Source: a virus
IMG/VR virus record: IMGVR_UViG_3300004369_000115
Location: 1-27,128 of that record
Strand: one strand, 5' to 3'
DNA: 27,128 bases
Position numbers and translations under genes: made by a program. Below, piece after piece: positions 741 through 27,128 of this stretch (positions are counted from its first letter, which is position 1; each line of letters opens with the position of its first letter). The notes under the pieces were generated by a model. It had not been told where the DNA came from and made no database searches. It saw only the letters and a program-made list of their open reading frames with translations.

Positions 741-1112
741 TTATAAGTCCTTGTCGTTTTTGATGTTAACAGAAATCGACCCGCCATCCATGACGGGTCC
801 ACGCACGATTGTCAAGTGGTCGATCAGCGAATCGTCCTGGATCACCCCGCCGTGGACGATGCTGTCCAGGGTTGCCTTCAGCAGGTTGTCCAAGTCTCTT
901 CGCCTTCGGTCCGGCGGGTTGGCCGTGATGTAGACCGTGAGCCTGCCCTGCATCGGGTTCATGCCTCGCCGTTCGACGATCGCCTGAACCTCCGCCCGGT
1001 AGGCCCGACCCCGCTCAGAGATCAGGACGCGGCCAGCCAGCCTGCCTCGGTTCACCGACCGGTAGTAGGAGTTCACCGACGGCGGCCACGGCAGAACTAG
1101 CGTGGTGTCCAT
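741..1112 (-). CDS. rusA: RusA-family Holliday junction resolvase
   Basis: This 123-residue protein matches the length of E. coli RusA (120). RusA enzymes are dimeric, Mg-dependent endonucleases that cut four-way DNA junctions. The N-terminal 'PWPPSVNSYYR' motif is characteristic. The catalytic aspartates correspond to Asp73 and Asp75 in RRDLDNLLKATLD and Asp94 in GVIQDDSLI. These are the expected counterparts of E. coli Asp70, Asp72 and Asp91. The ATG at 1112 has an AGGA site about 8 bases upstream. It is the first gene of a leftward operon with ssb and a zinc-finger gene, and probably resolves recombination intermediates or debranches replicating phage DNA before packaging. Confidence 0.93.
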   Translation of the reverse strand: MDTTLVLPWPPSVNSYYRSVNRGRLAGRVLISERGRAYRAEVQAIVERRGMNPMQGRLTVYITANPPDRRRRDLDNLLKATLDSIVHGGVIQDDSLIDHLTIVRGPVMDGGSISVNIKNDKDL

Positions 1113-1232: not shown

Positions 1233-2174
1233 ATGAAAGTGATTCTTGACCCAGCCGACGAAGCCGAATGGCTTGCGATGCGGCAGCAGGACGTGACCAG
1301 CACAGAGTGCTCTGCGCTCTTTGGTCTGTCTCCATACCTGACCGAATACGAGCTGTGGCATCAGAAGGCCAGCGGCGAACGCGGCAGCTTCTTTGAAACC
1401 GAGCGCATGACTTGGGGCAAGCGGCTGGAGCCGATTATTGCCGAAGGCGTGGCCGAAGACCAAGGCTGGAGCGTGGAGCCGTTCAAGCTCTACATCCGCG
1501 ACGACGAAGCGCGACTCGGGTCGTCGTTCGACTACCGCATCATCAACCATCAGGAAGGTGACGGCATCTTGGAGATCAAGAACGTCGACCGTTCTGCGTT
1601 TGCCAAGAAGTGGGTGGAGTATGCCGACGGCACCATCGAAGCTCCGGAGCACATCGAACTCCAGGTGCAACACCAGATGGAGGTCGCGGACATGGAATAC
1701 GCGGTCATCGCTGCTCTGGTCGGTGGCAACGAACTGAAGATGTCACACCGGACCCGTGACCGTGCGGTCGGCAGAGCCATCCGCGCCAAGGTCGCCGAGT
1801 TCTGGGACAGCATCGACAAGCAAGTCCCGCCGAAGCCTGACTACGACCGCGACTACGACCGCATCGTGCGAGCCAACCTCGCTGCGGTCAGCGATGAGGT
1901 CATGGAAGCAGACGAAGCCCTAGACCTCCTGATCGCTGACTACCGCGATGTCGCCGCACTGCGAAAGGACATCGAAGCCAAGGAGAAGGTGCTGAAGGCG
2001 CAGATCATCGAACGCGCAGGCACCGCCAGCAAGATTCACAGCGGCCACGGCACCGTGTCGTGCGGCGCAACCCAGCCGAGCCCGGGCAAGCTCATCACCG
2101 CCGACATGGTCGGCACCTACACCGGGGCGCGGGCTCCGTTCCGTGTGTTCCGATTCACCGCCAGGAAGGACTGA
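1233..2174 (+). CDS. YqaJ-family (lambda-exonuclease-like) viral recombinase
   Basis: This 313-residue protein belongs to the YqaJ/lambda exonuclease branch of the PD-(D/E)xK nucleases, which resect double-stranded DNA ends to expose single strands for annealing. The visible signature is an N-terminal 'DVTSTECSALFG' segment (20-31), Glu66 in the GKRLEP motif, Asp100 in the GSSFDYR motif, the catalytic Glu114-Ile-Lys116 (LEIKN), and the downstream QVQHQ motif (144-148). The C-terminal part (about 215-313) is helical with a small tail domain. The ATG at 1233 follows an AGAGGA site. It heads the rightward operon and is paired with RecT further along, the usual two-component exonuclease/annealase arrangement. 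Confidence 0.93.
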   Translation: MKVILDPADEAEWLAMRQQDVTSTECSALFGLSPYLTEYELWHQKASGERGSFFETERMTWGKRLEPIIAEGVAEDQGWSVEPFKLYIRDDEARLGSSFDYRIINHQEGDGILEIKNVDRSAFAKKWVEYADGTIEAPEHIELQVQHQMEVADMEYAVIAALVGGNELKMSHRTRDRAVGRAIRAKVAEFWDSIDKQVPPKPDYDRDYDRIVRANLAAVSDEVMEADEALDLLIADYRDVAALRKDIEAKEKVLKAQIIERAGTASKIHSGHGTVSCGATQPSPGKLITADMVGTYTGARAPFRVFRFTARKD

Positions 2175-2833: not shown

Positions 2834-3655
2834 ATGACTACTAACGCAGTATCCCCGATTGACACGATGCGCTCGACCCTGACCCGGATGCAGCCGGAGT
2901 TCAGCGCAGCACTTCCCCCGCAGATCAGCCCGGACAAGTTCATCCGCACGACGCTGACCGCGATCCAGATGCAGCCCGAGCTGCTAAACGCTGACCGCCG
3001 GTCGCTCTTCGGTGCGGTCATGAAGTCGGCGCAGGACGGCCTTCTGCCTGATGGCCGTGAAGCCGCACTCGTCATCTTCCGCAGCAAGAGCGGACCGATG
3101 GTGCAATACATGCCGATGATCGGCGGGCTGCTGAAGAAGCTTCGCAACTCGGGCGAGCTTGCCAGCATCTCGGCGCACGTCGTGCATGAACGCGACAAGT
3201 TTGACTACGTGCTTGGTGACGAAGAGAAGATCGAGCACGCGCCCTGCCTGTTCGGCGAGCGCGGCGATCCGATCGCTGTCTACGCCATCGCCAAGACCAA
3301 GGACGGCGCAATCTACCGCGAAGTCATGAGCGTCGAAGAGGTGGAGAAGGTCCGCAGCGTCAGCCGCTCCGGCAACGGTGGGCCTTGGACGACGTGGTGG
3401 GGCGAGATGGCCAAGAAGACTGTCATCCGCCGCATCTGCAAGCGCCTTCCCAGCAGCGCAGACCTGGACCAGCTCATGGCTCACGATAACGAGAACTACG
3501 ATCTCCGTCGTGAACCGACCAAGCAGGCACCGAACCCGATGGACCGCCTGCGCGCGGCCATCCAGATCGACGAAGACGTGACCCCCGAAGTGACCCCTGA
3601 AGAGGAGCAAGTTGATGACGGAACCCCCCCAGTCGCCAATGCTGACGCAGAGTGA
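2834..3655 (+). CDS. recT: RecT-family single-strand annealing protein
   Basis: This 273-residue protein is a RecT/Redbeta-type annealase. It binds single-stranded DNA exposed by the exonuclease and pairs it with complementary strands. Characteristic stretches are 'SPDKFIRTTLTAI', 'SLFGAVMKSAQDGLLPDGREA', 'VQYMPMIGGLLKKLRNSGEL' and 'WWGEMAKKTVIRRICKRLP', in the order found in RecT. The C-terminal tail (about 235-273) is acidic and probably disordered. The ATG at 2834 follows a strong AAAAGGA site. It is transcribed with the exonuclease and overlaps the next gene by 41 bases. Confidence 0.95.
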   Translation: MTTNAVSPIDTMRSTLTRMQPEFSAALPPQISPDKFIRTTLTAIQMQPELLNADRRSLFGAVMKSAQDGLLPDGREAALVIFRSKSGPMVQYMPMIGGLLKKLRNSGELASISAHVVHERDKFDYVLGDEEKIEHAPCLFGERGDPIAVYAIAKTKDGAIYREVMSVEEVEKVRSVSRSGNGGPWTTWWGEMAKKTVIRRICKRLPSSADLDQLMAHDNENYDLRREPTKQAPNPMDRLRAAIQIDEDVTPEVTPEEEQVDDGTPPVANADAE

Positions 3656-5405: not shown

Positions 5406-5671
5406 GGGGTAGTCCTGTTTTGCTTGCTCTGCAACTCTTTGAAGATGAGGTCCAGCTTCTCTTCGATCCGTTGGAGGGCACGAACGAACTCCTCCTTGGT
5501 CACGTAGGTTTGGGGAAGGTGCTCCCGAAGCTCGGCAAGGTTCTGCGTCAGCCGACGGTCCGAGTCCTGAAGGTCCCGCATCGCCTGCCAGATGACCCGG
5601 AGAACCCAGCCACCAGTTGCTGCCATCACTCCAAGCAGCACGTTGATGATTTCCTGGTTCATGGTGCTCAT
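5402..5671 (-). CDS. Membrane-anchored coiled-coil lysis accessory protein
   Basis: This protein of up to 89 residues has an N-terminal hydrophobic helix (IINVLLGVMAATGGWVLRVI) followed by a long charged coiled coil (LQDSDRRLTQNLAELREHL, then a basic/acidic helix with 'ALQRIEEKLDLIFKELQ'). The plan resembles small proteins encoded just before phage holins, and loosely XhlA-type hemolysin-like proteins. Start: ATG 5671 gives an ATGA overlap with the fibre stop, while ATG 5662 has a better-spaced GGA site and gives 86 residues. It ends in an ATGA overlap with the holin. A helper role in membrane permeabilisation is inferred from position. Confidence 0.65.
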   Translation of the reverse strand: MSTMNQEIINVLLGVMAATGGWVLRVIWQAMRDLQDSDRRLTQNLAELREHLPQTYVTKEEFVRALQRIEEKLDLIFKELQSKQNRTTP

Positions 5672-8600
5672 CCGAGACGAAACGCATCCACCAGCGGGCT
5701 GAGGATGTTGGACATGACGATGTGTGCCCGGAAGTCCGGGTGAATGTCGTCAAAATAGTAGGACAGCGGGCCGGGTTCGGTCCAAGGCACACTAAGCTGT
5801 GGCGTGTCAGCAAAGTCGGCTAGTGCATCATAGTATGGCGATGCCAGCCTCAACTTTGTATTGTAAAGGTTGCGGTTCGCTTCGCTGTAAGCGGTGAAGT
5901 AAGCCGGGTTGGCCGCCGTCACCGTGCAAACGATGACCTTGGCACCGGCATCGCGCAGCCTCTGCCAATACAAGGCAAGCTCCACGATTTTCTGGTCCAT
6001 TTGGGTCGGCGTGATCCCGGCTACCAAGTCGTTGATGCCAGCCATATAGATCACGATCGGGCGGCTGCCATCGGCAACAACGCGCTGGATCTTGTCCAGC
6101 ATCTCCGGTTCGCGATCCAGCGTGGACTGAATTGTGGAGCCAGACGTAGCCAACAGGATGTTGCTCAGCTTGCTGGCATCATTCTTCAGCTCGGGGATGA
6201 ACTCCTGCACGGTCATCGTGCCGAAGCCTATGCTGCCAGCGTTGACCACGTTGCCGGGTAGCGGGAAGCCAAGCGACATCTTCGTGTTCGACAGCTTTCG
6301 GGCGTAGATGATCTCTTGGTCGTCCAGCCCAGCAGGCAACGTGTTGGTCGTCTTGACCTGAACAGAGTCTTGCGTTGCGTAGCCGTGAGCGGAGGCAAAG
6401 GTCAGCTCGATCTTGTCCGCCGTCCAACTAATCTTGTTGGTGCCCGACCCTGCCGAGACATAGCCGATCGGGATGCTTGTCAAGCTAGTCGTTGTGGTCA
6501 GGTAGAGCGAGGTCGCGTCGCGGTAGCGGACGTAGTAGGTCACGCCCCCGGAAAGCCCACCCGGCAGGGTGCCGCCTTCCGTGAACACGATCACAGCGTC
6601 AGGAGTGCTGGTCGCATCCAGGTAGTTGTGATCGGCGCTAAAGGTCAGTTTCAGGCGACCGTCTTCCAGCGTTATGGTGTGATCGCCGGTTCCATCGTCT
6701 CCACCCCAAGCAATCGGCGTTGCCTCGGGGTCGGCCGTGGTCGCAAGGTCGAGCCTAGTCGAGTTGATGCGCTGGACGTAGTAGTCCGTGCCGGTTGACA
6801 CGCCAGTCGGCAGCGTCCCCGTTGTCGTAAGCCGGACCTTGTCTCCGGTGTAAAAGAAGTGCGGGCTACTAAAGACCCACCGCATGGTGCCGTCAGCGTC
6901 CACTACGGAACTGGCTTCCTGCGCGTTGGTGTCCTCTACGGCAGACGCAATCGTCTTCTCGTTCCGCGTAATGCCGATAGCCGTGACCGTTCGCTTGTTA
7001 AACTCTAGGCCGTAGAACAAGCGGTAGCGGAACGAGTCGCTTGGCGAGGTTGTGCCAACACCGAAGGTGATCGAGTCACCCTCAAAGAGAAGCACGGAAC
7101 CAAGCGACGATGCGGCTTCGTAGTGCGACGCCACGCGCTGCTTCTGTGCTGCGGCAAGGTTTACGACTTCAGTGTCCGTCAGGGCGCGGTCGTAGACGAC
7201 GGCGTTGGCGAACTCTCCTTGCAGGTTCAAGCCACGGATGATGTCGAACGGAGCTGCGTCAATCGCAACAATGCTCTCAAAGTTTCCCGCGCCAAGCAGA
7301 GACATCAGGCTGGCCGTGAACGGGACCACACCGACGTTGCGTCGCTGACTCTGCACGAACACAAACCCAGCACCGGCGCCGTCGTGAGCGACCAGATTGG
7401 TGCCAGCGGATGCCGGGGTCGTAGACAGGAACAGTCGTTCCTGCGGGTTCTCGGCAGGAAGGCGAACGTAGTAAGTCACACCTTCTTCGATGTTGCCTGG
7501 GAAAGCACCAGCAGCTCCACCCGGAATGTCGGCAACCGTGACCGTCACCGGTTGGTCTTCCACAAACCAGTGCGGCCCACCAAAGTCAAAGCGTAGCGTG
7601 CTAGCGTCGTTGGTTCGCGCCGTCGTCTTGACACGAATGAGGTCACGCACCTCACGCAGCAAAATGCCGTTCAGGTAGATGCGGACAGGATCAGAGTTGA
7701 CCCCCTGCTCCTTCGGACAGACAACGGTTAGGATCGACCACTTGTCAAGCGGTGGCGCGACCTCGGTGACCTGCACAACATCGTCAACGCTTCCAAGACC
7801 GTTGAAGCCGATGTAGCCACCTGCGGTTCCGTTTGCTGAGGCAATGTCCGAAAGGAACTCGTAGCTTGGCACGTTCAAAATGCTGAACGGCTGACCAGTC
7901 GGGGCGACAACGTTGGTGATCTGATACGGATCGTTGCTCGTCGGCTTGATCGCAACGCTGACCGTGACTTCTTCAAACTCTCGCTCTTCATTCAGCGGAG
8001 CAAGAAAGTGCATCTTGTCGGTGATCGCGCTGTCGTTGCTGTCAACGAACTTGCCGCTTCCGATGTTCCAAGACCGACGGTGCCACGGGTGCTGGACGGC
8101 AGGTGGCGTGTAGGTGGTCGCCGTGCCGGGGCGGAGCACGATGTTGTTGATGCGAACGCGCGTGGCGCTTCCAACGGTGCTGGTCAAGTTGCCATCATCA
8201 GCACACAGAATCAGGTCAACAGACGCAAAGTCCGTCCTATTAATCGTGGCCGTGACGTTGGACAGTGTTCCGGAAGCAGACAAGCCAAACCAGTTTGATC
8301 CGCCATCAACCGAATACACAAAGCTCTGCGCCGCAATATCAGACCAGTAATCGTAATTAAGCGTGTAGCGACCCGGCGGAAGATCAACCGGCAGCTTGAC
8401 CCGCATGTTCCCGCCGATGACTGCCGTGCCCAGATAATTCATCTGGACGTAGTCGCCATAACCATCCAAACCAAACGTGACCGTTCCAGCCGTCGCGCTT
8501 GGTGATCCAGCGATAAGATTGAGGAACTGTGGCGTGATGTGACCGCGCAACGGCTCTTCAGCAACGTTCGTGTTTCGCAGGATTGGCGAGTTGTCGTCCG

Positions 8601-9507
8601 GCTTCCCAGTGACGGCGCGGTTGCGAATGTTGGTGTGGCTGTAAAGAGAGTCCACGCTGACTACGTCCACCAAAGCCCCAGACGGAATGCTTTGGCCGGA
8701 CGGCGTCACACCACCAGATGCCGCGCTTGCTATCGTCGCGTCGATGCCATCAACAGGCACGACGTATTGAAGGACGCCGTAGTCTCCAGATTCGTTGTAA
8801 ACGTAGACGTAGTAGCGGCCTTGGTGTGCAAGCCGGAACACCGTGCCGTCATCGCCAGCGCCAAGGGCAGCGATGGCCGCCGCGTAGTTCGCGTAAACCG
8901 TGCTGGTCGCAGCGGTCACCGTGTTGACGTAGCTCTCCGCGTTCGTCTCCGCAGTCTCCGCTCCGGCCTGCGCAGCCTCGGCCGCAGTCTGCGCTGCTAC
9001 AGCGGCCGTCTCCGCTGCCTCAGCTCCAACACGCGCCGTCTGCGCCGCAGCGTCTGTGTTCAACAGGTCGGTGATGAACTCGTTCGGGTCCGTGTAGCCG
9101 CTGGTCAGGGGCACCTTGAATGCACGGTCCAGATCAACCTGCATCTGCTGAACCTGCACGACGCTGCGATCCAGAGCGTCTTCGATGACTTCAGCGAAGA
9201 ACCCGTCTTGGTTGTTGATGTCGACCGGCTGCGTGAGCGGCACCGCCGACGTGATGATGAGGTTCTTGGTTGCGGGCAGGGATGACGTGAGTGTGATCGT
9301 GCCACCCGGATTGCCATCCTGTTCTGCGTTCAGACTAACCGTGTAGTCCGTAGTCAGCGTCAGCGTGGTCTCTACGCCGGTCGCGATGACAGACGTAGTG
9401 ACCTTGACCTCGCTGGCAGCGAAGACCTTGAAGGTGAAGGCAAACGGGCCTGTCGTTCCGGAGCCGACGTAGAGCGGGCTCTTCCTGCTTTCGCTGCTGA
9501 TGGTCAT
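5668..9507 (-). CDS. Tail fibre with T7-type adaptor, lectin-like and SGNH hydrolase domains
   Basis: This 1279-residue protein starts at ATG 9507. The open frame upstream offers only a TTG. No ribosome-binding site is evident in the pyrimidine-rich leader. Domains: 1-135, T7 gp17-like virion-attachment domain (SRKSPLYVGSGTTGPFAFTF); about 155-205, Ala/Glu/Thr coiled-coil repeats; about 320-460, a beta-rich region like a carbohydrate-binding module; about 470-785, a LamG/concanavalin-like domain ending 'AVVYDRALTDTEVVNLAAAQ' with an FCCH-like module nested at about 636-720; about 805-1279, an SGNH/GDSL hydrolase. The last has Ser812 in EGDSITFG, Gly-x-Asn1159-Asp in AGINDL, and Asp1253/His1256 in DDIHPD. 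Three FCCH-like modules (about 865-1100) interrupt the hydrolase. The protein probably binds and deacetylates a surface polysaccharide of the host. Confidence 0.88.
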   Translation of the reverse strand: MTISSESRKSPLYVGSGTTGPFAFTFKVFAASEVKVTTSVIATGVETTLTLTTDYTVSLNAEQDGNPGGTITLTSSLPATKNLIITSAVPLTQPVDINNQDGFFAEVIEDALDRSVVQVQQMQVDLDRAFKVPLTSGYTDPNEFITDLLNTDAAAQTARVGAEAAETAAVAAQTAAEAAQAGAETAETNAESYVNTVTAATSTVYANYAAAIAALGAGDDGTVFRLAHQGRYYVYVYNESGDYGVLQYVVPVDGIDATIASAASGGVTPSGQSIPSGALVDVVSVDSLYSHTNIRNRAVTGKPDDNSPILRNTNVAEEPLRGHITPQFLNLIAGSPSATAGTVTFGLDGYGDYVQMNYLGTAVIGGNMRVKLPVDLPPGRYTLNYDYWSDIAAQSFVYSVDGGSNWFGLSASGTLSNVTATINRTDFASVDLILCADDGNLTSTVGSATRVRINNIVLRPGTATTYTPPAVQHPWHRRSWNIGSGKFVDSNDSAITDKMHFLAPLNEEREFEEVTVSVAIKPTSNDPYQITNVVAPTGQPFSILNVPSYEFLSDIASANGTAGGYIGFNGLGSVDDVVQVTEVAPPLDKWSILTVVCPKEQGVNSDPVRIYLNGILLREVRDLIRVKTTARTNDASTLRFDFGGPHWFVEDQPVTVTVADIPGGAAGAFPGNIEEGVTYYVRLPAENPQERLFLSTTPASAGTNLVAHDGAGAGFVFVQSQRRNVGVVPFTASLMSLLGAGNFESIVAIDAAPFDIIRGLNLQGEFANAVVYDRALTDTEVVNLAAAQKQRVASHYEAASSLGSVLLFEGDSITFGVGTTSPSDSFRYRLFYGLEFNKRTVTAIGITRNEKTIASAVEDTNAQEASSVVDADGTMRWVFSSPHFFYTGDKVRLTTTGTLPTGVSTGTDYYVQRINSTRLDLATTADPEATPIAWGGDDGTGDHTITLEDGRLKLTFSADHNYLDATSTPDAVIVFTEGGTLPGGLSGGVTYYVRYRDATSLYLTTTTSLTSIPIGYVSAGSGTNKISWTADKIELTFASAHGYATQDSVQVKTTNTLPAGLDDQEIIYARKLSNTKMSLGFPLPGNVVNAGSIGFGTMTVQEFIPELKNDASKLSNILLATSGSTIQSTLDREPEMLDKIQRVVADGSRPIVIYMAGINDLVAGITPTQMDQKIVELALYWQRLRDAGAKVIVCTVTAANPAYFTAYSEANRNLYNTKLRLASPYYDALADFADTPQLSVPWTEPGPLSYYFDDIHPDFRAHIVMSNILSPLVDAFRLG
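6200..6905 (-). repeat. Three tandem FCCH-like protein modules inside the SGNH domain
   Basis: Three degenerate modules of roughly 75-80 residues follow each other. Each starts with a strand such as 'MRWVFSSPHFFYTGDKV', 'LKLTFSADHNY' or 'IELTFASAHGYATQDSV'. Each continues with 'GTLPTGV', 'GTLPGGL' or 'NTLPAGL', and reaches a 'YYV' or 'IYA' strand followed by a short '..T.L.L' strand. Phage proteins with this pattern are commonly labelled 'ubiquitin-activating E1 FCCH domain-containing', a beta-barrel-like fold label. A fourth, divergent copy lies at about 7345-7600 in the lectin-like domain. Boundaries are approximate. Confidence 0.7.
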
Positions 9508-9527
9508 GGCGGGGTTGAGGTGGGGGT

Positions 9528-12500
9528 TTACTTTTGAGTGCCAAGGACGACGGCCCACCAAGGCACGTCTTTGCCTTCAGATAGCGCCAAGACGCCATCT
9601 ACGGTGCGGTTGATTTGAGTGGATGGGACACCAGCAACATCACCGACGAAGTTGGTAAACTGTCGCCAGAATCGGCGCGACTGCACGCCAGATTCTGCGG
9701 CGGCGTTGATAGTGCCTACAAAGTCAACGATTGGTGCAAAGCCAGCCGGGCCGCGATACTCAAAGGCGCGCTGTCCGCTCAACACAGATGCAATGGTCGG
9801 AGCGACTTCACGGAAGCCGACCGTGGTTCCAAGCAGGGTGTTGACGGACTCACGCAGGGTTTCCCATGCGTATTGCTCAGCAACAGACATTGCGCCCTTG
9901 CCGGTCCGGCGCTTTTTCTTTTCCTCCTCGTCATCCGGAGCGAGATCGCGGATGACAACAGTGAGGAAAGGAAGAACGACGGCAAGCGTTGCAAGCCGGG
10001 CTACGCCTTCTGCGGACAAGCCTTCAGTCTTGGCAATGCGGTAGATCTCGTTGAACAGTGTGTTCTGCCATGTGTAGAACACCGTCAACAGCTTAGAGCC
10101 GGGTCCGCCGCGTTCGATCGTGGACAGGTTAACAAGGTCACCCGAACCCTGTGTGTCCAGAACTGCTTGGTAGGCGCGGTCAGCAGCTTCCTTGTCGCTG
10201 ATGCCGGGGTTGTCCTCAAACGCGCGGGAGTAGGCAGCGTGCCAAGTAATGGTGTCAGGCACCATCTGGCTATACATAATCATGGCGTAGGCACCTCTTT
10301 CGAGCGCCATGATCTTCTCTGGCTTGCCGCGAATCTGCGCGGCCACTTCGCCAAGCTCACGAAATCTTGTGCGGTGACGGTTCCGCATCTCCGGGCTCTT
10401 GTCCAGCATCTCCTTGTGAGTGCCAACCACGTCAGACAAGAACCTGATCGTGGCATCGCCCACATGCTTTGCGCCGATGCTTTGCGCGGATATGACGGTT
10501 CCTGTCTGCTGAAGAGCCGCCGTGACTGGACTGAAACCAAGCCGCGACACACTGATAAACCGGCGCATCAGACCAAGCCACTGCTCAGCCGGGTGCTGCG
10601 GACCAGGGCCAGATGCAGCGATGTCCTTCATCCACTGACGAATGTCGGCCATCCACTCGGAGCCGTAGTTGTCGATGATGGCCCGCGACACAGAGCCGTC
10701 AGGCCGCAAGATCAGGTTGGCATCGACCAGATACTCACGCCAAGCAAGGTCGTGGATGACCTCGTTCAAGCCGTTGAACAAGCGGCTGGTTTGCAGTAGC
10801 AGCGGGCGATTAAAAACGCGGGCGACACGGGTCTTTTTGTATGTATCGCGCGTTTGGTTGCCAACGAACGAACCTTCTAGCTGCATCCGCGCTTGCGTTG
10901 CGGCCTCAATGCTGGTTCCAAGCTCGCTGGCGCTGCGGTCATATTTGATCGGCAGGTAGCCACCGTTCAGCTCAACCAAACTGCCGTCGTTAGCGCGGAA
11001 CGCGATCGGCTTGGGCGTCAGGTAGGTCGGCTCTTTGCCGTTAAGTCGCCGTTCCATCTCCGAGATACGCGGCTTAAACTCAGCAAACAGATCCCAGATC
11101 TGACCGACAACGCGCAGCTCTTCTGGTGTCAGCACGGACACCATCTGCATGGCTTCTTCCTGCGTAATTCCGAAGCCGTCGGTCACGCGCTGGATGTTGC
11201 TTTCGTTTCCAAGATCCAAAGCAAGGATGAACACTTCTTCGCGCGTCAAGCTGCGTGGAGTTCTCCCTGCGTCGTCTTGCCACTCACCAGACTTGGTGTC
11301 AAACTTGCGGCGCGGCATCACTGCGCCACTGTCCGCAGTCATGGTTCCGCGCTCGTAGAACGGCTGCATCATCATTTGCAGGCGCTCGGTAATCTCCGCG
11401 ACCTCCTGCTGCTCAACGCCCATCTGCCTGTTGGCCGGGCGGATGATGAAATTCCAGAACGCACCAAGCTCACCGCCATCCATGACGTAAGCTTTGGTTG
11501 ATGTCTTGATGTGCCGAATGAAGAACGAGTGAAAGCTCTTCTTCATCCGACCAAGGACCGTGTTGGGCGTGACGTTAGACGGCTTGATCTTGCCGGAATT
11601 GCTTTCAACGTTGCCGATTAGCTCGGTCTTGATCTCTGCCAGCTTCTTGTTGAGCTGCATCAGCCGGGCGTTCTGAATGCGATCACCTGCGTGGTAGATC
11701 TGTTCGATCGCGTCAACGATCCCATCCAGGGAATCCATCGGGATGTCCTGAATTGGTCGCTCTGCGGCGATGCTCAGCATCTCATCAGAGATGCCGTAGT
11801 CCATGCCCGACTGTTGCTGATCCTTCAGCCACTGCTGGAACCGAACGCGCTGATCCTGCATCCGCTGCGCGGCCTGCGCTGAAACCTTGCGGATGTTCAG
11901 GCGGCTAAGGATGTAATCAATCTGATCGCTGTGGTCCGCACCGATCTTCTTGCGCTTTGTGTCCTTGGACATGCGGCGCAGATAACGCTCATGTTTGTCA
12001 AACCGCTTGCGTGCCGCGATGGCTTCGCGGTAAAGCATCCCCTGGTAGAGCTGGTTCCACTTGGCCCTGACAACCGCGTTGACCGTAGCTCGCCCCGGCT
12101 GCTTGTTGATCTCGCCAAGCGCATCCATCATGGCCTGCTGCGCTTGCTTCACGTCTTGCTCAGCAGCGGCGATGATGTCGGCGTCTTGGGTTTCCTTTGC
12201 CGCCTTCAGAGCCTTACGGGCTTGTGACAGGGCCTTGCTCTGCTCAGCCGTTGCGCGGCGGTCACCCTTGGCCATCCACTGCTGAGCAGTCTTCGCAGCG
12301 CGACGCTCTGCTGCAAGGAACTTGGCAGGCTTGATGTTGCGGTGGCTCATCTGCGCCACTTCAGCCTCGGCTTCCCTTCTGGCCGCCTCCATGATGACGC
12401 GGACTGGTTTGTTGATGCCGCCAAGGAACTGAAGCTCCTTAGACACAAACTTGGCCAGCGCCTCGTTGTGCAGCGACTCCATCGCTGCTTGCTTGATTGC

Positions 12501-15500
12501 CTCCGGCTTCAGCTCTGGATGACGCTCCTTGATCTCCTCATCAGTCAGCTCGTTGATGACGTCGTTGATGGGGCGAGCAGCAACAAGCTCCTTTACAAGC
12601 TCTGCGGCTGAAGCAAAGCCAAACTGTTCGGCAACAACCGCCGGATCTAGCCCGTTCTTCACGACCATGCCGTAGCGGCCAGTGCGAAGCGGTGACAGAT
12701 CCAGGTAGCCAGCTTCGCCTTCCTTGGCTGGGAACAGCTCCTGAACCCGTGCTGCATCCAAACGGTAAGGCTTGGGCACTTGGCGCTCGTTCCCCTGCTC
12801 GTCTACGAACACACCGCGACGCAGCATGTTGATGGCCCTGTAGACGGGGCGAGACTCAACCTCTGCCTGAATGCCCTCCCGGATCGCCTTGCGCTGCTCC
12901 TTGGCGGTCTTGTTCTTGGCGCGGATGACACGGGCCATCGCGTTGTCAAGCCACCGCATGGCGCGAGCGGTCGTCGCAGTCAGCTTGGCCGTAGCTTGGT
13001 CGATGTGAAGCTCGGCTCCCAGATTGTATGCCTCCCACTCTTCATCAGACATGGCTGACTCTTCCTGTGTCTGGAAGACAGGAATCATCTGCATGTCAGC
13101 GGCTGCTGTAGCAACTTCGGCTTCAGCCCCCATCATGGTGTCGAACACCTCAATGACCGATGGAGTCAGCACAGGCAGCTTGCGACCGGGAAACTCCTTT
13201 TCGTAAGCAGAGCTAAGAGCGCCACGGATCTTGCCGTAGATGCCTCGCATCCACTTGGCAACCTTGGCAAAGACCTTCTCTAGCCTCTTGGTCGGAGCCT
13301 TGCCGGTGCCAAGATAGATCTCAAAATTGTAAGTAAACGCTTCGTGGTGGACCGCCTTTTCGCTTGCTGGCAGAGCATCCCACGCGGCCAGATCCTCTAC
13401 GCCGAACCAGTCAAGGAGCGTCTGGAACTGCGAAGTGACAGCCTCTGGCGCGTCTTGGTTATGGGCAAGAAGCGACAGGGTATGCAGGTAGTGATGGATG
13501 AACTCATGGATCAGAGTTGTCGCATCCGCCTTTTCAGACAGGATGATCTCCATCGAACGCGGGAGGTATGCACCACGGCGCTGCGTGTCGTCAGCTTCTG
13601 GCGCATACAAGATGCTCGGCTGATCTACATCAAACCGCTGCGACAACGGAATAATGTTGCCGTCGGCGTCGCGGGTGATGGGGTCGGCGGATTTGACGGA
13701 GCCCGGATCGACAATCATGTAGGAATCAACGCCGCGATCTTCAATCGTGTTTTCGTATACAACGGCGTCAAACCCGGCGGCACGAATAAGATCTACGGGC
13801 GAATAGATTCCTTCTTCATTGGCAAACGGCGCAAGCTCTGGATATTTACCTTCTCGGACCGCGCGCAACAGGGCTGGCATACTATTGACTTCGCTGTCCG
13901 TAAGTCGAAACGGCCTTTCAATTTTTGCTAAAACGCGGACAACCTTTCTGTCGGCCTCCGGAACGCCGCGAAAATCAAGCCTGTCAACCGCCGCTTCTTG
14001 TGTTGAGCCAAAATGTGACCCGCGATCAAAAACATCAAACTTCTTTTCGGTTCCGTGGAAAAGCTCCACTGTGAATCCAGCAGATCGTGCCGCATCTGCC
14101 ACTGCCGCCTGCTGCGCCTCAACGTCCCCCGCCTTGACAGCCTCCATGTAGGCCGCGTCTTGGGCAGGTGTGACGCGGGAGCCGGAAGGATGTGGCGCAT
14201 ACAGGATGCTTGGCTGCTCTACATTAAACCGCCGCGACAAAGGAATGACGTTGCCGTCGGCGTCGCGGGTGATCGCGCGGGCGTCCATCTCAGAGGAAAG
14301 CTGAAGCCTTCCAACGCCTTCTTGACCGATGATTGGGGCAACCCGCATCTCTGGCGTAATGCTTTCGGCCCGCGCGTTTAACGGAAAGAAATGGACCTCC
14401 ATCGGCTGCTGGCCGAACACATCAGCAAACGCATCAGACCTAGATCGGCCTTCGTGGTTGCTTACGCGCCAAACACCGTTCTCCTTGTCCCAGTCGACAA
14501 GCAGGAACGGCTGACCGATCTTCTCGCCAGACGACAACTTCTCTGAGATGAATGATCTGGTGCTCTCGCCGGATACCCCCGGAGGAACAAGGCTGCGAAA
14601 CTGCTCCGGAGTAAGGAATGCTCGGAAGCCGCGATAGTCAACCTCTTGGTTGTTTGAAACAGCTCCATAACCATCCTTGGCGTCGAAGACGTCGGGGACA
14701 CCGGCAGCTCGGTTCACAGCCGCCTGCTGCGCCTTAACGTCCCCCGCCTTGACAGCCTCCATGTAAGCCGCGTCAGCCTTCGGCGTCACCGGCTGAGACA
14801 AGATGCCCTGCCCACCAAGCTCTGGAATCGTGATCTGACCAGCCGTCAGCACCGGCTTGTGTAGATCCCAAAGCTCGCCCACCTCCATGTTGAAAGCCCT
14901 CGCAAGGCTTTCCCAAGACGTGACGGCAATCTCGGCTGCACTGGATGCCTGCTTCTTGGTGATGCCGGGCATCTGAGCGGCGAAGTCCCGAAGCTCCTTC
15001 AGGATCACCTGACGCTGGTCTGCTTGCCGCTCTTCGCTTTCCAGCGACTGCTGCATTTGCTCTTCGGTCTGCTCACGGATGCGCTGTCGCTCCTCTTCAA
15101 TCTGCGACTCTTCCGCAAGCGAGAACTCAGCGTTGCCGATACGCAAGTTCGGCTGCATCTTGCTGGCGATGTCCTGATACTTCTCGCTCAGAGCCATCCG
15201 CGCAACAAAGTCTCCGGTAGGCAGCTCCACCTCGCTGCCGGGATCTGCGCCATTCTGGTTGAGCTGCTGGCCGATAGACGGGAACTCAGCCAGGAAGTCA
15301 TCACGGTCTTCTGACTCAGCTAGAATCTGACCTAGAACCTCTGAGTCAATACGCGCAACATCACGACCGGTGATCTGCGATGCAAGGTTGACGAACTCTG
15401 CCGCTTTTTGCGGGCTTTGCTTGGCAAGGTTGGTGTCGCGCAGGTTGTCGATGACACCTTGAACAAAGTCGCCGTTGCTTTTGGTAATCTGCTCTTCTGT

Positions 15501-16712
15501 GTCAATGCGCGTCGTTAGTTGCTCTGCAACACGAATCGTTGTGTTAAGCGATGCCACACCAACTGTGGTTGCGACGATAGTGTGCCACGCACGCTCCGGT
15601 CGCTCGCGCAGGTATTCCTCAAACGTCTTGTCTGGCTCCAGCGCGGCCATGTCCAACAGGTCCTGCGCTGCCGTTGCGATGTTCTCCTGCACAAGCTCAG
15701 CCGGAAGCTGATCCTTAATGCGTTGCAGCAACGGGCTTTTGAGCTTCATGCCAGCAAGGAACTTGCCGCCCGGCACGATGTTGGTCAGATACTCAATGCC
15801 TGCTTGACCAAGCGCGTAGGTGTGAGCGGCTTGCTCACTCATGCCCTCTAGACGAGCGCGGTTGATCGAGTTGCCGTAAAGCGGAACGACAAAGGCAGCT
15901 CCAGCACCGTGAACCCCAAGCACCGGATACAGCGGAGCAACGGCCAGCATCGCTGGCAGTGACCGAAAGCCGCCGTAGATTGCAGCCGTGGTAGAAGATG
16001 GATCAACCCCGCCTTCATCAAGCAGCTCCTTCAGTGGCGTTTTGACATCGGTCAGAAACTGCTCTGCATAAAACTGCGTAGCCTGAGCCCCTTGGCCAAC
16101 ACTTCGCAAGAAGCTAGAAATGGCCGGGAAAACTCCGCCTTCAGCAATCCATTCCTCCTGCGTTTGCGGAGTGATCTGCTGTTCAATGCGCTTTAGCTGG
16201 CGGCCAGTCAGACCTTGTCGTTGCAGGTCTTCCAGCAGCATTCTGCGGAACTCTGGCGGTGAATAGCCAGCAGTGCGAAATGCGTCAATAAGGCGCTCTG
16301 GGAAAGCAGCAACGGCCGAAAGCGCCCCGGCGGCAAAAGTCATCGTGCCACCGGCAAGCTCTTTCAAAACGCCGCCAACGGAAAGCTTTTCAACTTTGGT
16401 TAGCGCATCCGTGTCTTGCCAAGAAATGTTGGCGTAGTCCGGATTAGACAGCCACTGCGCCGTGACCGGCGACATCTCGGTCTTGCCGGTCACCCGAATA
16501 ATGTCTTGCCGACGCTTTTCCTCGGCGACGATGTAGTCATCGACGGTTGATGCAGCGTTCAGATTGACGCGCTCAGCAACCTTGTTCGGATCGCGGGTAA
16601 GGGCAATCTGAAGACTGTGCCGAACCCTAGCGTTCTGCGCCTCACGCGCTGCGCGTTGAAGCTCAGTCTCTGGCCGCTGGCCACCGATGATCGGAACAAT
16701 TGGGTCAGTCAT
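9528..16712 (-). CDS. Giant polyvalent internal virion (ejection) protein with ART-like and zincin domains
   Basis: About 2394 residues from ATG 16712 (ATGA overlap with the gp15-like stop; an ATG at 16724 is possible). It takes the T7 gp16 position and is probably ejected into the host with the DNA. Regions: 1-640, mostly helical with hydrophobic stretches (TMTFAAGALSAVAAF near 130); about 646-840, cassette 1 with a HEGRxR motif (His753); about 851-1038, cassette 2 with an ADP-ribosyltransferase-like domain (FHGT with His886, HFGS, Glu987 in VYEN); about 1045-1170, zincin protease (HEFIHHYLH, His1069, Glu1070, His1073, and His1077 as candidate third ligand), with the typical 'YLGTGKAP' helix after it. 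The remaining 1200 residues are helical, with one membrane segment near 2230-2246 (LATLAVVLPFLTVVI). The C-terminal region resembles large-polyvalent-protein domains. No lytic transglycosylase domain, as in T7 gp16, is seen. Confidence 0.85.
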   Translation of the reverse strand: MTDPIVPIIGGQRPETELQRAAREAQNARVRHSLQIALTRDPNKVAERVNLNAASTVDDYIVAEEKRRQDIIRVTGKTEMSPVTAQWLSNPDYANISWQDTDALTKVEKLSVGGVLKELAGGTMTFAAGALSAVAAFPERLIDAFRTAGYSPPEFRRMLLEDLQRQGLTGRQLKRIEQQITPQTQEEWIAEGGVFPAISSFLRSVGQGAQATQFYAEQFLTDVKTPLKELLDEGGVDPSSTTAAIYGGFRSLPAMLAVAPLYPVLGVHGAGAAFVVPLYGNSINRARLEGMSEQAAHTYALGQAGIEYLTNIVPGGKFLAGMKLKSPLLQRIKDQLPAELVQENIATAAQDLLDMAALEPDKTFEEYLRERPERAWHTIVATTVGVASLNTTIRVAEQLTTRIDTEEQITKSNGDFVQGVIDNLRDTNLAKQSPQKAAEFVNLASQITGRDVARIDSEVLGQILAESEDRDDFLAEFPSIGQQLNQNGADPGSEVELPTGDFVARMALSEKYQDIASKMQPNLRIGNAEFSLAEESQIEEERQRIREQTEEQMQQSLESEERQADQRQVILKELRDFAAQMPGITKKQASSAAEIAVTSWESLARAFNMEVGELWDLHKPVLTAGQITIPELGGQGILSQPVTPKADAAYMEAVKAGDVKAQQAAVNRAAGVPDVFDAKDGYGAVSNNQEVDYRGFRAFLTPEQFRSLVPPGVSGESTRSFISEKLSSGEKIGQPFLLVDWDKENGVWRVSNHEGRSRSDAFADVFGQQPMEVHFFPLNARAESITPEMRVAPIIGQEGVGRLQLSSEMDARAITRDADGNVIPLSRRFNVEQPSILYAPHPSGSRVTPAQDAAYMEAVKAGDVEAQQAAVADAARSAGFTVELFHGTEKKFDVFDRGSHFGSTQEAAVDRLDFRGVPEADRKVVRVLAKIERPFRLTDSEVNSMPALLRAVREGKYPELAPFANEEGIYSPVDLIRAAGFDAVVYENTIEDRGVDSYMIVDPGSVKSADPITRDADGNIIPLSQRFDVDQPSILYAPEADDTQRRGAYLPRSMEIILSEKADATTLIHEFIHHYLHTLSLLAHNQDAPEAVTSQFQTLLDWFGVEDLAAWDALPASEKAVHHEAFTYNFEIYLGTGKAPTKRLEKVFAKVAKWMRGIYGKIRGALSSAYEKEFPGRKLPVLTPSVIEVFDTMMGAEAEVATAAADMQMIPVFQTQEESAMSDEEWEAYNLGAELHIDQATAKLTATTARAMRWLDNAMARVIRAKNKTAKEQRKAIREGIQAEVESRPVYRAINMLRRGVFVDEQGNERQVPKPYRLDAARVQELFPAKEGEAGYLDLSPLRTGRYGMVVKNGLDPAVVAEQFGFASAAELVKELVAARPINDVINELTDEEIKERHPELKPEAIKQAAMESLHNEALAKFVSKELQFLGGINKPVRVIMEAARREAEAEVAQMSHRNIKPAKFLAAERRAAKTAQQWMAKGDRRATAEQSKALSQARKALKAAKETQDADIIAAAEQDVKQAQQAMMDALGEINKQPGRATVNAVVRAKWNQLYQGMLYREAIAARKRFDKHERYLRRMSKDTKRKKIGADHSDQIDYILSRLNIRKVSAQAAQRMQDQRVRFQQWLKDQQQSGMDYGISDEMLSIAAERPIQDIPMDSLDGIVDAIEQIYHAGDRIQNARLMQLNKKLAEIKTELIGNVESNSGKIKPSNVTPNTVLGRMKKSFHSFFIRHIKTSTKAYVMDGGELGAFWNFIIRPANRQMGVEQQEVAEITERLQMMMQPFYERGTMTADSGAVMPRRKFDTKSGEWQDDAGRTPRSLTREEVFILALDLGNESNIQRVTDGFGITQEEAMQMVSVLTPEELRVVGQIWDLFAEFKPRISEMERRLNGKEPTYLTPKPIAFRANDGSLVELNGGYLPIKYDRSASELGTSIEAATQARMQLEGSFVGNQTRDTYKKTRVARVFNRPLLLQTSRLFNGLNEVIHDLAWREYLVDANLILRPDGSVSRAIIDNYGSEWMADIRQWMKDIAASGPGPQHPAEQWLGLMRRFISVSRLGFSPVTAALQQTGTVISAQSIGAKHVGDATIRFLSDVVGTHKEMLDKSPEMRNRHRTRFRELGEVAAQIRGKPEKIMALERGAYAMIMYSQMVPDTITWHAAYSRAFEDNPGISDKEAADRAYQAVLDTQGSGDLVNLSTIERGGPGSKLLTVFYTWQNTLFNEIYRIAKTEGLSAEGVARLATLAVVLPFLTVVIRDLAPDDEEEKKKRRTGKGAMSVAEQYAWETLRESVNTLLGTTVGFREVAPTIASVLSGQRAFEYRGPAGFAPIVDFVGTINAAAESGVQSRRFWRQFTNFVGDVAGVPSTQINRTVDGVLALSEGKDVPWWAVVLGTQK
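14104..14159 (-). repeat. Cassette-boundary direct repeat, copy 2 (before the ART-like domain)
   Basis: This 56-base sequence encodes the linker around 'DAAYMEAVKAGDVEAQQAAV'. It matches the copy at 14719-14774 at 54 of 56 bases, both differences being single substitutions. The copies are 615 bases (205 codons) apart, so recombination between them would delete or exchange exactly one in-frame domain. Confidence 0.92.
14719..14774 (-). repeat. Cassette-boundary direct repeat, copy 1 (before the HEGRxR domain)
   Basis: This is the partner of 14104-14159 and encodes 'DAAYMEAVKAGDVKAQQAAV'. The downstream end of each cassette is also repeated. 'ITRDADGNVIPLSRRF...' (about 14195-14275) and 'ITRDADGNIIPLSQRF...' (about 13600-13680) are close copies at DNA level, and both end in 'QPSILYAP'. 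Confidence 0.92.
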
Positions 16713-18856
16713 CGGTTGCCCCATTCAGACATCTTCTTAATTGCTACACCAATGTTTTCGTTGGTGAGTTTCAGGTTGTTTTGCAAAAGCATCTCTTCAG
16801 CAAGCTGGTATATTTTTGCCGGAACCTCCTTCTCAGTTACGCTGCCGTCTTCGTTGGTAAACCGAACCATGCGTGGCTGGTTTAAAAACTGCTCTCTCGT
16901 CAAGCCAGCTAGGCCAGACACAACAGGCGCGCTCACATCTGTGACGCCCGGTGCGCCAGTGCCAATGCTGTAGGTTGTGCTTTTGAATCCAAAGCTGATT
17001 TTCTGGCCAAGGATGTCAAGGAAGATTTCTTTTTCTTGATCTGGGGTCAGCGGCTTTTGATCACGCGCAGCTCGGCTAGCATTGGATGTGTTGATGGCGT
17101 CGGTCCACTCGCCAAACAAGATGGACTTCAAGCTATACAGATCCGGGTTTGAAGACAGCGTGACGTTAGCCATCTCTTCATACCCGTTTCGGTAAAGCAG
17201 CGTCTTAAAGTTGTTATCGCGGTCGTAGATAAGGCTGGCTTTGCCTGTTCCTTCCTGGCCAAAGATGTCTCGATACTTGTTGTAGGTAGACTCAGAAAGA
17301 CGCGGGCTCATGTTGTCCAAAAACTGCATCTTCTCTTCCAGAGACTTACTGCGGTCTACGGACATGGCGTAAAGCGCATCGCGCTCTGCTCGCCCCTCCA
17401 AAGCGGGCGGCGGCTCAGACAAGGCTGCGCGCACATCAGAGCTAAGCTGCAACCACTCTCTGCGTGGGATGAGATGAGCCAAAGACTTGCCTTGCTTTTG
17501 CGCCTCGGCGCTGTGAGCGATAGACTTTGCCGCTCTGTTGCGGGCAGACTCTTGCTCTAAGCGGCGACGCGCTTCCTCGTTGTTGATGCGCTCAATCTCT
17601 GCTACCGCAGTCTTCTTGTATTCGTCTGACCGACCCGACGCACTAATCGCTTTCTTGGCTGACGAAACATCTAGCGATCCATCGTCTAGCCGTGGAACCT
17701 TCGTCGATCCTTCTCGAAACGCGCGAACGTCGGGGCTGGCTGACACCGTCAGCTTCACAAGATCATCGTCTTGAACTGCGTAGTGAACGGTCAGCCCGAC
17801 CGCGCGAAGGCGCTCAGCCGTGTCGCCGGGCGTCTCGCCATCAACTGGCCCGGCAAGGATGATCGTGCGGCCGTTCGGAGCAGAGCCCGTGCCCACAACG
17901 TCTACGCCCTGCGCGGACACCAGCTTGCCGATAGACTCCTTGGACACAGACCCACCAAAGCGACCAGTGCTGGCAAGCTGCGCTGCGTCACTTAGAGCCT
18001 CTGACTGATCCTTCTCGCTGCGTGCCTGCGACAGAAAAACTTCGGCTGATGCTTCATCAAGCAGGTCGTTGTCGCGCAGAGACTGCACATGGTCGATCGC
18101 TTCATCGTAGCGACCATCATTCATCAGCAACGCAGATGTCTTGCTCACAATCCCCTGGACGACCGACCTCTTCTTTTCCTGAACGATTGGGTCATCAACG
18201 GCAAGGCCAAGGCGTGCATGGCTCGTTTCAACAAGACGCAGCATGGAGCCAAGGGTCACGTTAAAGTCGCCACTTGGTTCGCTGACCGAGCTGAACGAAC
18301 GCGCAGCCATGTTGGCTAGGCTTTTGATTTCCGCTTCGTCAGACGCCGTTTCGTAGGCTCGTTGCTGCGCGATCTGATGCTTGCGAGCGTTGCGGTTGTA
18401 GGTTGCGTAGTAGGACTGGGCTTTCTGGGTGTAGGTGTCCCGCGCAACCCCCTGCGGAAGCGCAGCGGCACCTTCCTCAATCGCCTGCTGAACGCGCGTG
18501 TCGAAAGCGGTTCTATCTAGAGCGTTGCCAAGTAGCGTTTCCTGGTATTCGTCAGAGATCAGGTCAATCTTGTCGGACACAGATGACAGGACGCCCCTAA
18601 CGTCGGCATCAACTTGCCGGTCCTGCCTCTCTTGTGCTGAAATACGCGACTGCGCCCCGATACGCGCCCGCATCTCCGCAAGACGATTCTTGTCTTGCTC
18701 AATACCTATGGCCATCTGCCCAGCGCGGGCAAGGTCTTGGCCGAGCTGCATGACCGACTGCATCCCTGGCGAAGGAGCAGCCTGGAACTGCGGTGCCGCA
18801 ACCTGCTCTTGCTGGACCTGCGGCTGGACCTGCGGAGCGACGGGAACTCGGACCAT
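16709..18856 (-). CDS. Internal virion core protein, gp15-like
   Basis: This 715-residue protein lies between the gp14-like and giant proteins, the place of T7 gp15, which forms part of the ejected core that spans the periplasm. The N-terminus is rich in Pro and Gln (VAPQVQPQVQQEQVAAPQFQ). A long helical region follows (about 40-300, with tetratricopeptide-like 'NDGRYDEAIDHVQSLRDNDL'), then a small beta-containing segment (about 310-370), then more helices. There is no enzymatic motif. The ATG at 18856 overlaps the preceding stop by one base (TAATG). Its 3' end is visibly richer in A+T (24 of 60 G+C in 16741-16800) than most of the operon. Assignment rests mainly on order, size and composition. 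Confidence 0.72.
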   Translation of the reverse strand: MVRVPVAPQVQPQVQQEQVAAPQFQAAPSPGMQSVMQLGQDLARAGQMAIGIEQDKNRLAEMRARIGAQSRISAQERQDRQVDADVRGVLSSVSDKIDLISDEYQETLLGNALDRTAFDTRVQQAIEEGAAALPQGVARDTYTQKAQSYYATYNRNARKHQIAQQRAYETASDEAEIKSLANMAARSFSSVSEPSGDFNVTLGSMLRLVETSHARLGLAVDDPIVQEKKRSVVQGIVSKTSALLMNDGRYDEAIDHVQSLRDNDLLDEASAEVFLSQARSEKDQSEALSDAAQLASTGRFGGSVSKESIGKLVSAQGVDVVGTGSAPNGRTIILAGPVDGETPGDTAERLRAVGLTVHYAVQDDDLVKLTVSASPDVRAFREGSTKVPRLDDGSLDVSSAKKAISASGRSDEYKKTAVAEIERINNEEARRRLEQESARNRAAKSIAHSAEAQKQGKSLAHLIPRREWLQLSSDVRAALSEPPPALEGRAERDALYAMSVDRSKSLEEKMQFLDNMSPRLSESTYNKYRDIFGQEGTGKASLIYDRDNNFKTLLYRNGYEEMANVTLSSNPDLYSLKSILFGEWTDAINTSNASRAARDQKPLTPDQEKEIFLDILGQKISFGFKSTTYSIGTGAPGVTDVSAPVVSGLAGLTREQFLNQPRMVRFTNEDGSVTEKEVPAKIYQLAEEMLLQNNLKLTNENIGVAIKKMSEWGNR

Positions 18857-26477: not shown

Positions 26478-27128
26478 TCAGTTGTGCGTGACCGTCCAGC
26501 CACGTCCTTGAAGAGCGGTGACAGCTGCAAGACCCGTTGCGCTCGGCGTTGCGCTAGTCCCGCCAGTCATGTTCAGCGTGCCGTTGCTGGTCCCGGCGGC
26601 TTCAATGCTGACCAGAATGTTGTCGACACTAGTTTGCGTCAGAGCGCAGTTCACAAAGGCGTTGATGAAGTTGGTGCAGGGCGTGCTGTCGAAGACGTTG
26701 GCGGGGAAGCTGGTAAGGCTATTGCAACCAGACCAAGCAGCAAAAAAGTTAGTCCCCTGACTTGTATCAATCAGTGGGAAGCTAGTAAGGCTATTGCAGC
26801 CATACCAAGCAAGACCAAAGTTGGTCCCCTGACTTGTATCAATCAGCGGGAAGCTAGTAAGACCTGTGCATTGATACCATGATCTAAGAAAGTTAGTTCC
26901 CTGACCTGTATCAATCAAAGGGAACTCCGTAATCCACGACGCTTGTCGCCAATATTGGGTAAAGTCCGTCACCCCAGCATATGCACCGGTCCCGGTTGCT
27001 CCGGCACCCTTGCCGTCGAAGTAGTCATAAGTCGCAGTGACTTCGCCCCCAGACATCGCCCCATCGCGAACGACCGTGCCATACAGATCCTTCTGGAACG
27101 TGTAGATCACGCTCGGCGAGTTGGTCAG
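26478..27128 (-). CDS. BspA-type leucine-rich-repeat protein, 5' end possibly beyond right edge
   Basis: The frame stays open to the window edge. An internal GTG at 27110 would give 210 residues, but six further in-frame codons (LTNSPS) precede it, so the true start may lie outside. After a 60-residue N-terminal part come repeats of 24 residues with the core 'LTSFPLIDTSQGTNF..AW.GCNS', the BspA/DUF285 type of leucine-rich repeat. A capping repeat and a small C-terminal domain ('LAAVTALQGRGWTVTHN') follow. In phages this type occurs in structural or host-binding proteins. It lies upstream of the head genes rather than near the fibre, which is unusual for an adhesin. Confidence 0.75.
   Translation of the reverse strand: MTNSPSVIYTFQKDLYGTVVRDGAMSGGEVTATYDYFDGKGAGATGTGAYAGVTDFTQYWRQASWITEFPLIDTGQGTNFLRSWYQCTGLTSFPLIDTSQGTNFGLAWYGCNSLTSFPLIDTSQGTNFFAAWSGCNSLTSFPANVFDSTPCTNFINAFVNCALTQTSVDNILVSIEAAGTSNGTLNMTGGTSATPSATGLAAVTALQGRGWTVTHN
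26700..26935 (-). repeat. 72-base tandem repeats encoding leucine-rich repeats
   Basis: About three and a third units of 72 bases are visible. The sequence CCCCTGACTTGTATCAATCA starts at 26754 and 26826, with a diverged copy near 26898. The two central units are nearly identical, which indicates recent duplication. Unit count may vary between related phages. Confidence 0.85.

Follow-up and report, generated by a model that had tools for sequence, protein, structure and literature searches.

Likely exchange of bracketed cargo domains in the giant, probably ejected protein of a BPP-1-like podovirus

How do two unrelated domains come to lie in one phage protein between almost the same pair of flanking sequences? 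This question is raised by a stretch of viral DNA of 27,128 nucleotides (IMG/VR record IMGVR_UViG_3300004369_000115, positions 1 to 27,128; hereafter, the window), in which a single open frame on the minus strand encodes a giant protein of 2398 amino acids. Two domains in the middle of this protein, cargo A and cargo B, are each bracketed by an upstream element, LINK, and a downstream element, TAIL. The explanation that we consider likely is that such bracketed domains are exchanged by recombination in LINK and TAIL, in a protein that is probably ejected from the virion. Comparison of DNA from relatives supports cargo swapping through short-homology recombination well for the family. For the window itself, we infer that one of the two cargos was swapped in, from what is seen in the family and from the unrelated folds that lie between near-identical brackets.

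Two cargos between near-identical brackets

In reading order, the gene presents LINK A, cargo A, TAIL A, a 33-nt spacer, LINK B, cargo B, and TAIL B (Table 1). A sequence-only reading of this DNA had reported a 56-base linker recurring at 14719-14774 and 14104-14159, and a second boundary recurring after each cargo. Both repeats are there: the linker is identical at 54/56 positions, or 57/60 when extended, and the second boundary is a 91-nt repeat with 79/91 identical positions. The best further match to LINK within the gene, with the second copy excluded, is 32/60, so the 57/60 pair lies far above chance. When cassettes A and B are compared in 15-nt bins, identity is at background right after LINK and rises again at TAIL, in agreement with the earlier statement that the cargos are wholly different between their boundaries. 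In structural models, LINK A has helices at residues 2-10 and 13-23, with low confidence, and LINK B at residues 2-10 and 13-26, with a predicted local distance difference test (pLDDT) score of ~95. TAIL has the motif D.DGN.IPLS.RF, followed by a lineage-specific peptide such as ILYAP.

By its modeled fold, cargo B is an ADP-ribosyltransferase (ART). The model of cassette B (pLDDT 90.7) has an ART fold, with LINK and TAIL also modeled confidently, and its structural matches are nearly all ARTs (best Z 7.1, root-mean-square deviation 3.1 over 116 residues). This likeness to well-known ART toxin folds shows ART membership and nothing more. The top Foldseek match of the ART model is a pre-ejectosome chain of cyanophage A4 (PDB 9k3a_B; E 1e-4, TM-score 0.35). 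The fold model thus upholds the earlier description of the domain as ADP-ribosyltransferase-like, while the sequence match to Pfam ART-PolyVal (PF18760; E 2.3e-5, 25.6 bits) stays below the curated cut-off of 31.2. PF18760 matches 36/42 aligned cassettes and spans only residues 30-159 of the 188-residue cassette. His35 is kept in cargo B, and D131, a putative catalytic residue, aligns to a column with Asp in 36/42 cassettes. Neither of the two cassette alignments, nor the whole protein, found anything usable in sequence searches of the PDB.

Cargo A contains the HEGRxR motif that the sequence-only reading had picked out, but it belongs to no family in Pfam or PHROGs. Its model (pLDDT 70 overall and 85-91 in the core, from an alignment of low depth) resembles sulfiredoxin (Srx), Osa, and ParB-like proteins. 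Structural matches include Srx (Z 6.1), Osa (Z 5.7), PadC (Z 4.6), and ParB-like proteins (Z ~4-5), and a further structural list does not distinguish ParB from sulfiredoxin. The family signature is D..GxGAV.N..EVDY...HEGRxR, in which HEGRxR is invariant across a small family. The scans for this domain used small alignments, since a five-sequence alignment was too diverse for scanning. The domain stands alone on Bosea and Rhizobium plasmids and is found in many phages, either alone or fused in larger proteins; its free-standing relatives (L237-L239 and L241-L258) are 150-190 residues long and come from alphaproteobacterial plasmids and phages. A protein search with cassette A returned no phage-record match and three weak plasmid matches. 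HEGRxR was seen between LINK and TAIL only in the window, and in one other locus (L180) it directly precedes a LINK.

Exchange of cargo among relatives

Relatives were found with an alignment (A1) of the conserved C-terminal part of the protein, which yielded 80 IMG/VR loci; relatives of this part occur in at least 577 IMG/VR stretches. In a subset of the A1 loci, both brackets, Y[ML]AAVERGDMATAQRMVDEAA and TRDEAGNVVPLSRRFDITSPKVFEQAA, flank differing cargos. A DNA pattern for LINK matched 117 stretches of viral DNA and 15 of bacterial DNA, most of the bacterial ones belonging to metagenome-assembled genomes of Clostridia. From these searches come 101 nonredundant LINK-cargo-TAIL cassettes in 96 loci (99 outside the window and 2 within it), with ~77 cargo types at 80% nucleotide identity. 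Although 82 of the 101 fall in one broad ART cluster, the cargos of L131, L133, and L180 have no credible Pfam match, and three cassettes are empty, LINK running straight into TAIL. The homologues therefore do not always carry exactly the window's two domains: other cargos, for which the sequence-only reading had proposed to search by homologue comparison, occur between the same brackets, and some cassettes are empty. A BPP-1-like C-terminal part is present in the same frame in 43/96 cassette-bearing frames. Since the remaining frames are partly cut by contig ends and partly other large proteins, the bracket probably extends outside the BPP-1-like family.

Other scans were less productive. No usable relative emerged when IMG/VR was scanned for exact peptides of the middle region or of the whole protein, and a degenerate scan for the window's linker found no related phage, matching only a distinct family of marine giant proteins. 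Four of these (L021, L022, L023, and L024) have a related AYMEAVEAGD element; an insert of ~150 residues follows this element closely in L022 and is missing from the near-identical L021 and L023.

Exchange is most apparent where flanks and cargo disagree. For instance, DNA identity among L038, L039, and L062 is 96-98% both ahead of LINK and in the C-terminal part, yet their three cargos are unrelated. L127 and L155 have flanks that are 90% and 91% identical around cargos with 5% identity, and the corresponding values for L190 and L211 are 94%, 86%, and 4%. The reverse is found as well: L113 and L126 share a 100% identical cargo in flanks with 7% and 4% identity, and near-identical cargos in unrelated flanks also occur in L051/L145, L116/L175, L181/L198, and L034/L038. 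In every displayed pair, the shift in identity falls inside LINK and TAIL. Altogether, ten upstream contexts each occur with at least two cargo types, and ten cargo types each occur in at least two contexts.

Two further measurements point to the brackets. First, of 282 distinct break points found in the variable middle, 96 lie in LINK/TAIL windows, about five times the number expected: the null mean is 19.4, and none of 2000 shuffles gave more than 35. This test was not built on chosen pairs, and the 282 break points are not independent, because related open reading frames share them. Second, among phages whose backbones are <70% identical, the fraction of identical codons at identical residues is 0.70 in LINK and 0.80 in TAIL but 0.51 in equally conserved backbone, with the pairs again not independent. 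Such an excess fits exchange of the bracket DNA itself.

These observations suggest how a cargo bay in the middle of the protein could work. Each cargo sits between LINK, a modeled helical hairpin on its N-terminal side, and TAIL on its C-terminal side, and the brackets, being near-identical around different cargos, would offer short stretches of homology. If a cell harbors two phages, or a phage alongside a prophage, recombination at LINK and TAIL could exchange, add, duplicate, or delete a cargo in frame while the N- and C-terminal parts stay unchanged. The arrangement in the window would go back to duplication of one bracket pair, with one copy now holding the ART and the other the ParB/Srx-like domain. 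Early in infection the cargos would act on targets in the host, possibly once the neighboring zincin-like peptidase has freed them.

Several points weigh against this explanation. Two thirds of the break points lie outside LINK and TAIL, which implies that other junctions are used too. The codon identity of the window's LINK and TAIL to other phages is 0.52 and 0.54, compared with 0.45 for its backbone, and so its brackets are not clearly more codon-identical than the backbone. The closest relatives of the window are ~37% identical in amino acids in the C-terminal part, and none of the relatives found is a close one with a different cargo; exchange in the window's lineage is therefore a matter of analogy only. 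The swap site proposed by the sequence-only reading holds well for the family, with its other cargos, empty cassettes, and free recombination, and it may apply to the window's own lineage, whose relatives do not exceed ~37%. Cargo B has an Arg at a column with Tyr in 27/42 cassettes, which leaves its activity uncertain, and it may be inactive or divergent. Nearly all cassette comparisons are of metagenome contigs; among isolate phages, no clear case of a complete bracketed cassette was found, with H59 and H60 aligning over most of one at 28-30% identity. Finally, the phage's own YqaJ and RecT had been suggested as the enzymes of exchange. Both genes are present in the window, but 9/20 swap-carrying contigs have RecT and 1/20 have YqaJ, many of these contigs being fragments.

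Among other explanations, an unlikely one is that an ART cassette was duplicated in tandem just once and that one copy then diverged beyond recognition or had its cargo replaced a single time, with no ongoing exchange and with the linkers staying alike because the protein needs them. The differences between copies, 3/60 in LINK and 12/91 in TAIL, are indeed compatible with one age (Fisher p 0.16), and the scan for the window's exact linker found it in no other phage. However, the two cargos have different folds, so divergence alone fails as an explanation; moreover, relatives show repeated exchange and empty brackets, and HEGRxR exists elsewhere in free-standing form or in other fusions.

We also find it rather improbable that LINK and TAIL are structural parts of ART-PolyVal held alike by selection on the protein, with the swaps being ordinary ART divergence. 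That most cargos are ARTs, and that LINK and TAIL are modeled with high confidence beside the ART, would agree with such a role, but the Pfam ART model falls short of both ends of the cassette, and conservation extends to codons rather than residues alone. Nor would ordinary divergence produce 90% identical flanks around 5% identical cargo, identical cargo in unrelated flanks, empty brackets, or the non-ART or Pfam-less cargos of window cassette A, L131, L133, and L180.

It is very improbable that the swaps are assembly chimeras formed at conserved brackets of 60-90 nt in mixed metagenomes: although cassette-bearing relatives are almost all metagenome contigs and the brackets are common to different phages, we rejected chimerism as the main cause because exact runs in the swapped pairs usually reach 11-60 nt at their longest (e.g., 44/26, 23/27, 16/44, and 23/24), which the large k-mers of assemblers exceed, because both a given cargo and a given empty form turn up again in different samples, and because the middle region varies in isolate genomes too. 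In BPP-1, a diversity-generating retroelement acts on the tail protein Mtd; we do not consider such an element a likely source here, because whole domains change and not point positions.

The giant protein, its neighbors, and the recombination genes

The giant protein matches phrog_9880 at E 5.6e-261, and its homologues include Bbp10 of Bordetella phage BPP-1, annotated as "part of the structural protein cassette," and relatives. The surrounding genes code for internal virion, tail, and head proteins and a protease. The window phage is a BPP-1-like podovirus, and the giant protein is an internal protein of that group. Gene order and homology make it probable that this protein is packaged in the virion and leaves it together with the DNA; the same evidence suggests that the cargos are injected and act as effectors.

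Several unrelated domain regions, namely ART-like, ParB/Srx-like, and HExxH, are joined in this one chain. The C-terminal 1349 residues are conserved among homologues, and the cargo is internal rather than C-terminal. In the isolates compared, the N- and C-terminal parts are conserved and the middle is variable in all, ranging from ~230 to >2000 residues, with conserved similarity restarting at about residue 1050 of the window protein, where the HExxH region begins. The two cassettes of the window thus sit in a family-wide variable region. In the cultured relatives Caulobacter phages Jess A and SR18, an ART occupies the corresponding place in the giant protein. The H, E, and H residues of HExxH are invariant in 13 homologues, and Pfam gave no peptidase match. 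The LPD22-like match scores 27.5 bits, under the cut-off of 28.6.

Table 1. Positions of the cassettes, the giant gene, and the recombination genes in the window
Feature	Position	Strand	Basis or comparison
LINK of cassette A (DAAYMEAVKAGDVKAQQAAV), helical hairpin in models	14715..14774	-	57/60 vs copy B
Cargo A, HEGRxR domain, ParB/sulfiredoxin-like fold (core ~14310-14690)	14284..14714	-	Fold model
TAIL of cassette A (ITRDADGNVIPLSRRFNVEQPSILYAP)	14193..14283	-	79/91 vs copy B
Spacer between cassettes, 33 nt	14160..14192	-	
LINK of cassette B (DAAYMEAVKAGDVEAQQAAV), helical hairpin in models	14100..14159	-	57/60 vs copy A
Cargo B, ART of polyvalent-protein type	13690..14099	-	PF18760 and fold model
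TAIL of cassette B (ITRDADGNIIPLSQRFDVDQPSILYAP)	13599..13689	-	79/91 vs copy A
HEFIH (HExxH motif), putative zincin-like metallopeptidase region directly after the cassettes	13494..13508	-	Read from sequence
Conserved C-terminal part, residues 1050-2398	9531..13577	-	Alignment A1
LPD22-like region, N-terminal part	16380..16619	-	PF18834, E 3.8e-6
Giant internal (probable ejection) protein, 2398 residues, BPP-1-like podovirus	9528..16724	-	phrog_9880, Bbp10 homology
RusA Holliday-junction resolvase	741..1112	-	PF05866, E 1e-14
YqaJ-type exonuclease	1233..2174	+	PF09588, E 1.8e-25
RecT single-strand annealing protein	2834..3655	+	PF03837, E 2.7e-43

Frames at 16709-18856 and 5668-9561 overlap the two ends of the giant gene. 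Neither an immunity gene nor an orphan cargo cassette was seen adjoining it, and no small gene lies between it and these overlapping neighbors. The frame at 5668-9561 encodes a tail fiber with a podoviral tail-fiber N terminus (phrog_1640) at its start and, by eye, repeated units with h-YYV-type motifs followed by an SGNH-type hydrolase-like end.

Short peptides mark the ends of the modules. A lineage-specific peptide stands at both ends, namely FEQAA (L026-L092), NYSI (L126 and L155), or ILSQP/ILYAP (the window, near residues 640, 839, and 1037). In 14 proteins, all 43 FEQAA-like peptides lie in the N-terminal or middle part, and the C-terminal part has none. The module-end peptide may mark a site of cleavage, or it may be a footprint left by recombination. 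From its homology and a proposal in the parts of Iyer et al. (2017; PMC5512222) consulted, the HExxH region perhaps releases the cargo. A more tentative idea, which we regard as possible though doubtful, is that LINK and TAIL form a plug standard across lineages, by which effector domains circulate from one giant injected protein to another out of a shared gene pool, and that FEQAA, ILYAP, and NYSI are sites at which the resident peptidase cleaves to free the cargos after injection.

The exact runs shared at the junctions of swapped pairs, mostly 11-60 nt, are of a length that suits recombinases of the single-strand annealing type. According to the portions of De Paepe et al. (2014; PMC3945230) consulted, phage mosaicism is driven by Rad52-like recombinases, which tolerate divergence. 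YqaJ, RecT, and RusA are candidates for a role in the swaps, and other recombinases may serve instead. The interval between the YqaJ and RecT genes holds, at 2452-2829, repeats of 12 and 18 nt that make up a Gly/Asp/Ser-rich tract, and three tandem 72-nt repeats lie near the contig end at 26704-26919, the second and third being 88% and 74% identical to the first.

Relation to known systems and significance

Four known systems bear comparison. First, polyvalent proteins of phages and conjugative elements are, like the giant protein, large and multidomain, and their ART, zincin-like, and LPD domains have probable counterparts in it. The passages of Iyer et al. consulted (PMC5512222) describe ART, zincin-like peptidase, and LPD domains in very large phage proteins, note domain mosaicism (Helicobacter jhp1044, with up to 50 domain combinations), and suggest cassettes for kinase loci. 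Published work already covers polyvalent proteins, the ARTs that they contain, and the domain mosaicism of some (PMC5512222, PMC9503650). Fixed brackets, break points there, empty forms, and codon conservation are absent from those passages of PMC5512222, which also do not name HEGRxR under that motif for polyvalent proteins. What is new relative to this known mosaicism is the bracketed cassette.

Second, swapping of C-terminal toxins is established for polymorphic and MuF toxins (PMC3482391, PMC5576092). In bacterial polymorphic toxins (Zhang et al. 2012, PMC3482391), cassette recombination likewise replaces the cargo and keeps the delivery part. In the giant protein, by contrast, brackets enclose an internal cargo from both sides, the virion presumably delivers it, and no adjacent immunity gene or orphan cassette is seen. 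MuF polymorphic toxins (Jamet et al. 2017, PMC5576092) are likewise phage-packaged proteins with a variable effector part, but that part is C-terminal after MuF, whereas the giant protein has an internal variable part with possibly several cargos and gave no MuF match at E up to 1.

Third, the mosaicism that Rad52-like recombinases, including RecT types, produce in phages also uses short, diverged homologies, but in the portions of PMC3945230 consulted it concerns whole gene segments and not one domain within one gene.

Fourth, the cyanophage A4 pre-ejectosome chain likewise has an ART-like stretch inside a virion ejectosome protein, although its TM-score to the ART cassette model is modest. 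We know of no cassette exchange in that chain. The literature searched, itself only partial, contained no description of the bracket pair, of exchange at it, or of empty forms.

Phages must disarm the host within the first minutes of infection, before expression of their genes, and the weapons that they inject are largely unknown. The giant protein looks like a natural plug-in system for such early weapons. Its brackets provide a simple DNA handle, in that any sequence enclosed by LINK and TAIL becomes a candidate for an early effector. A single pattern scan gave dozens of cargo types, and several of these, including the ParB/Srx-like family, lack a credible match in Pfam. More broadly, these brackets make it possible to test whether short intragenic sequences are kept for the exchange of domains.
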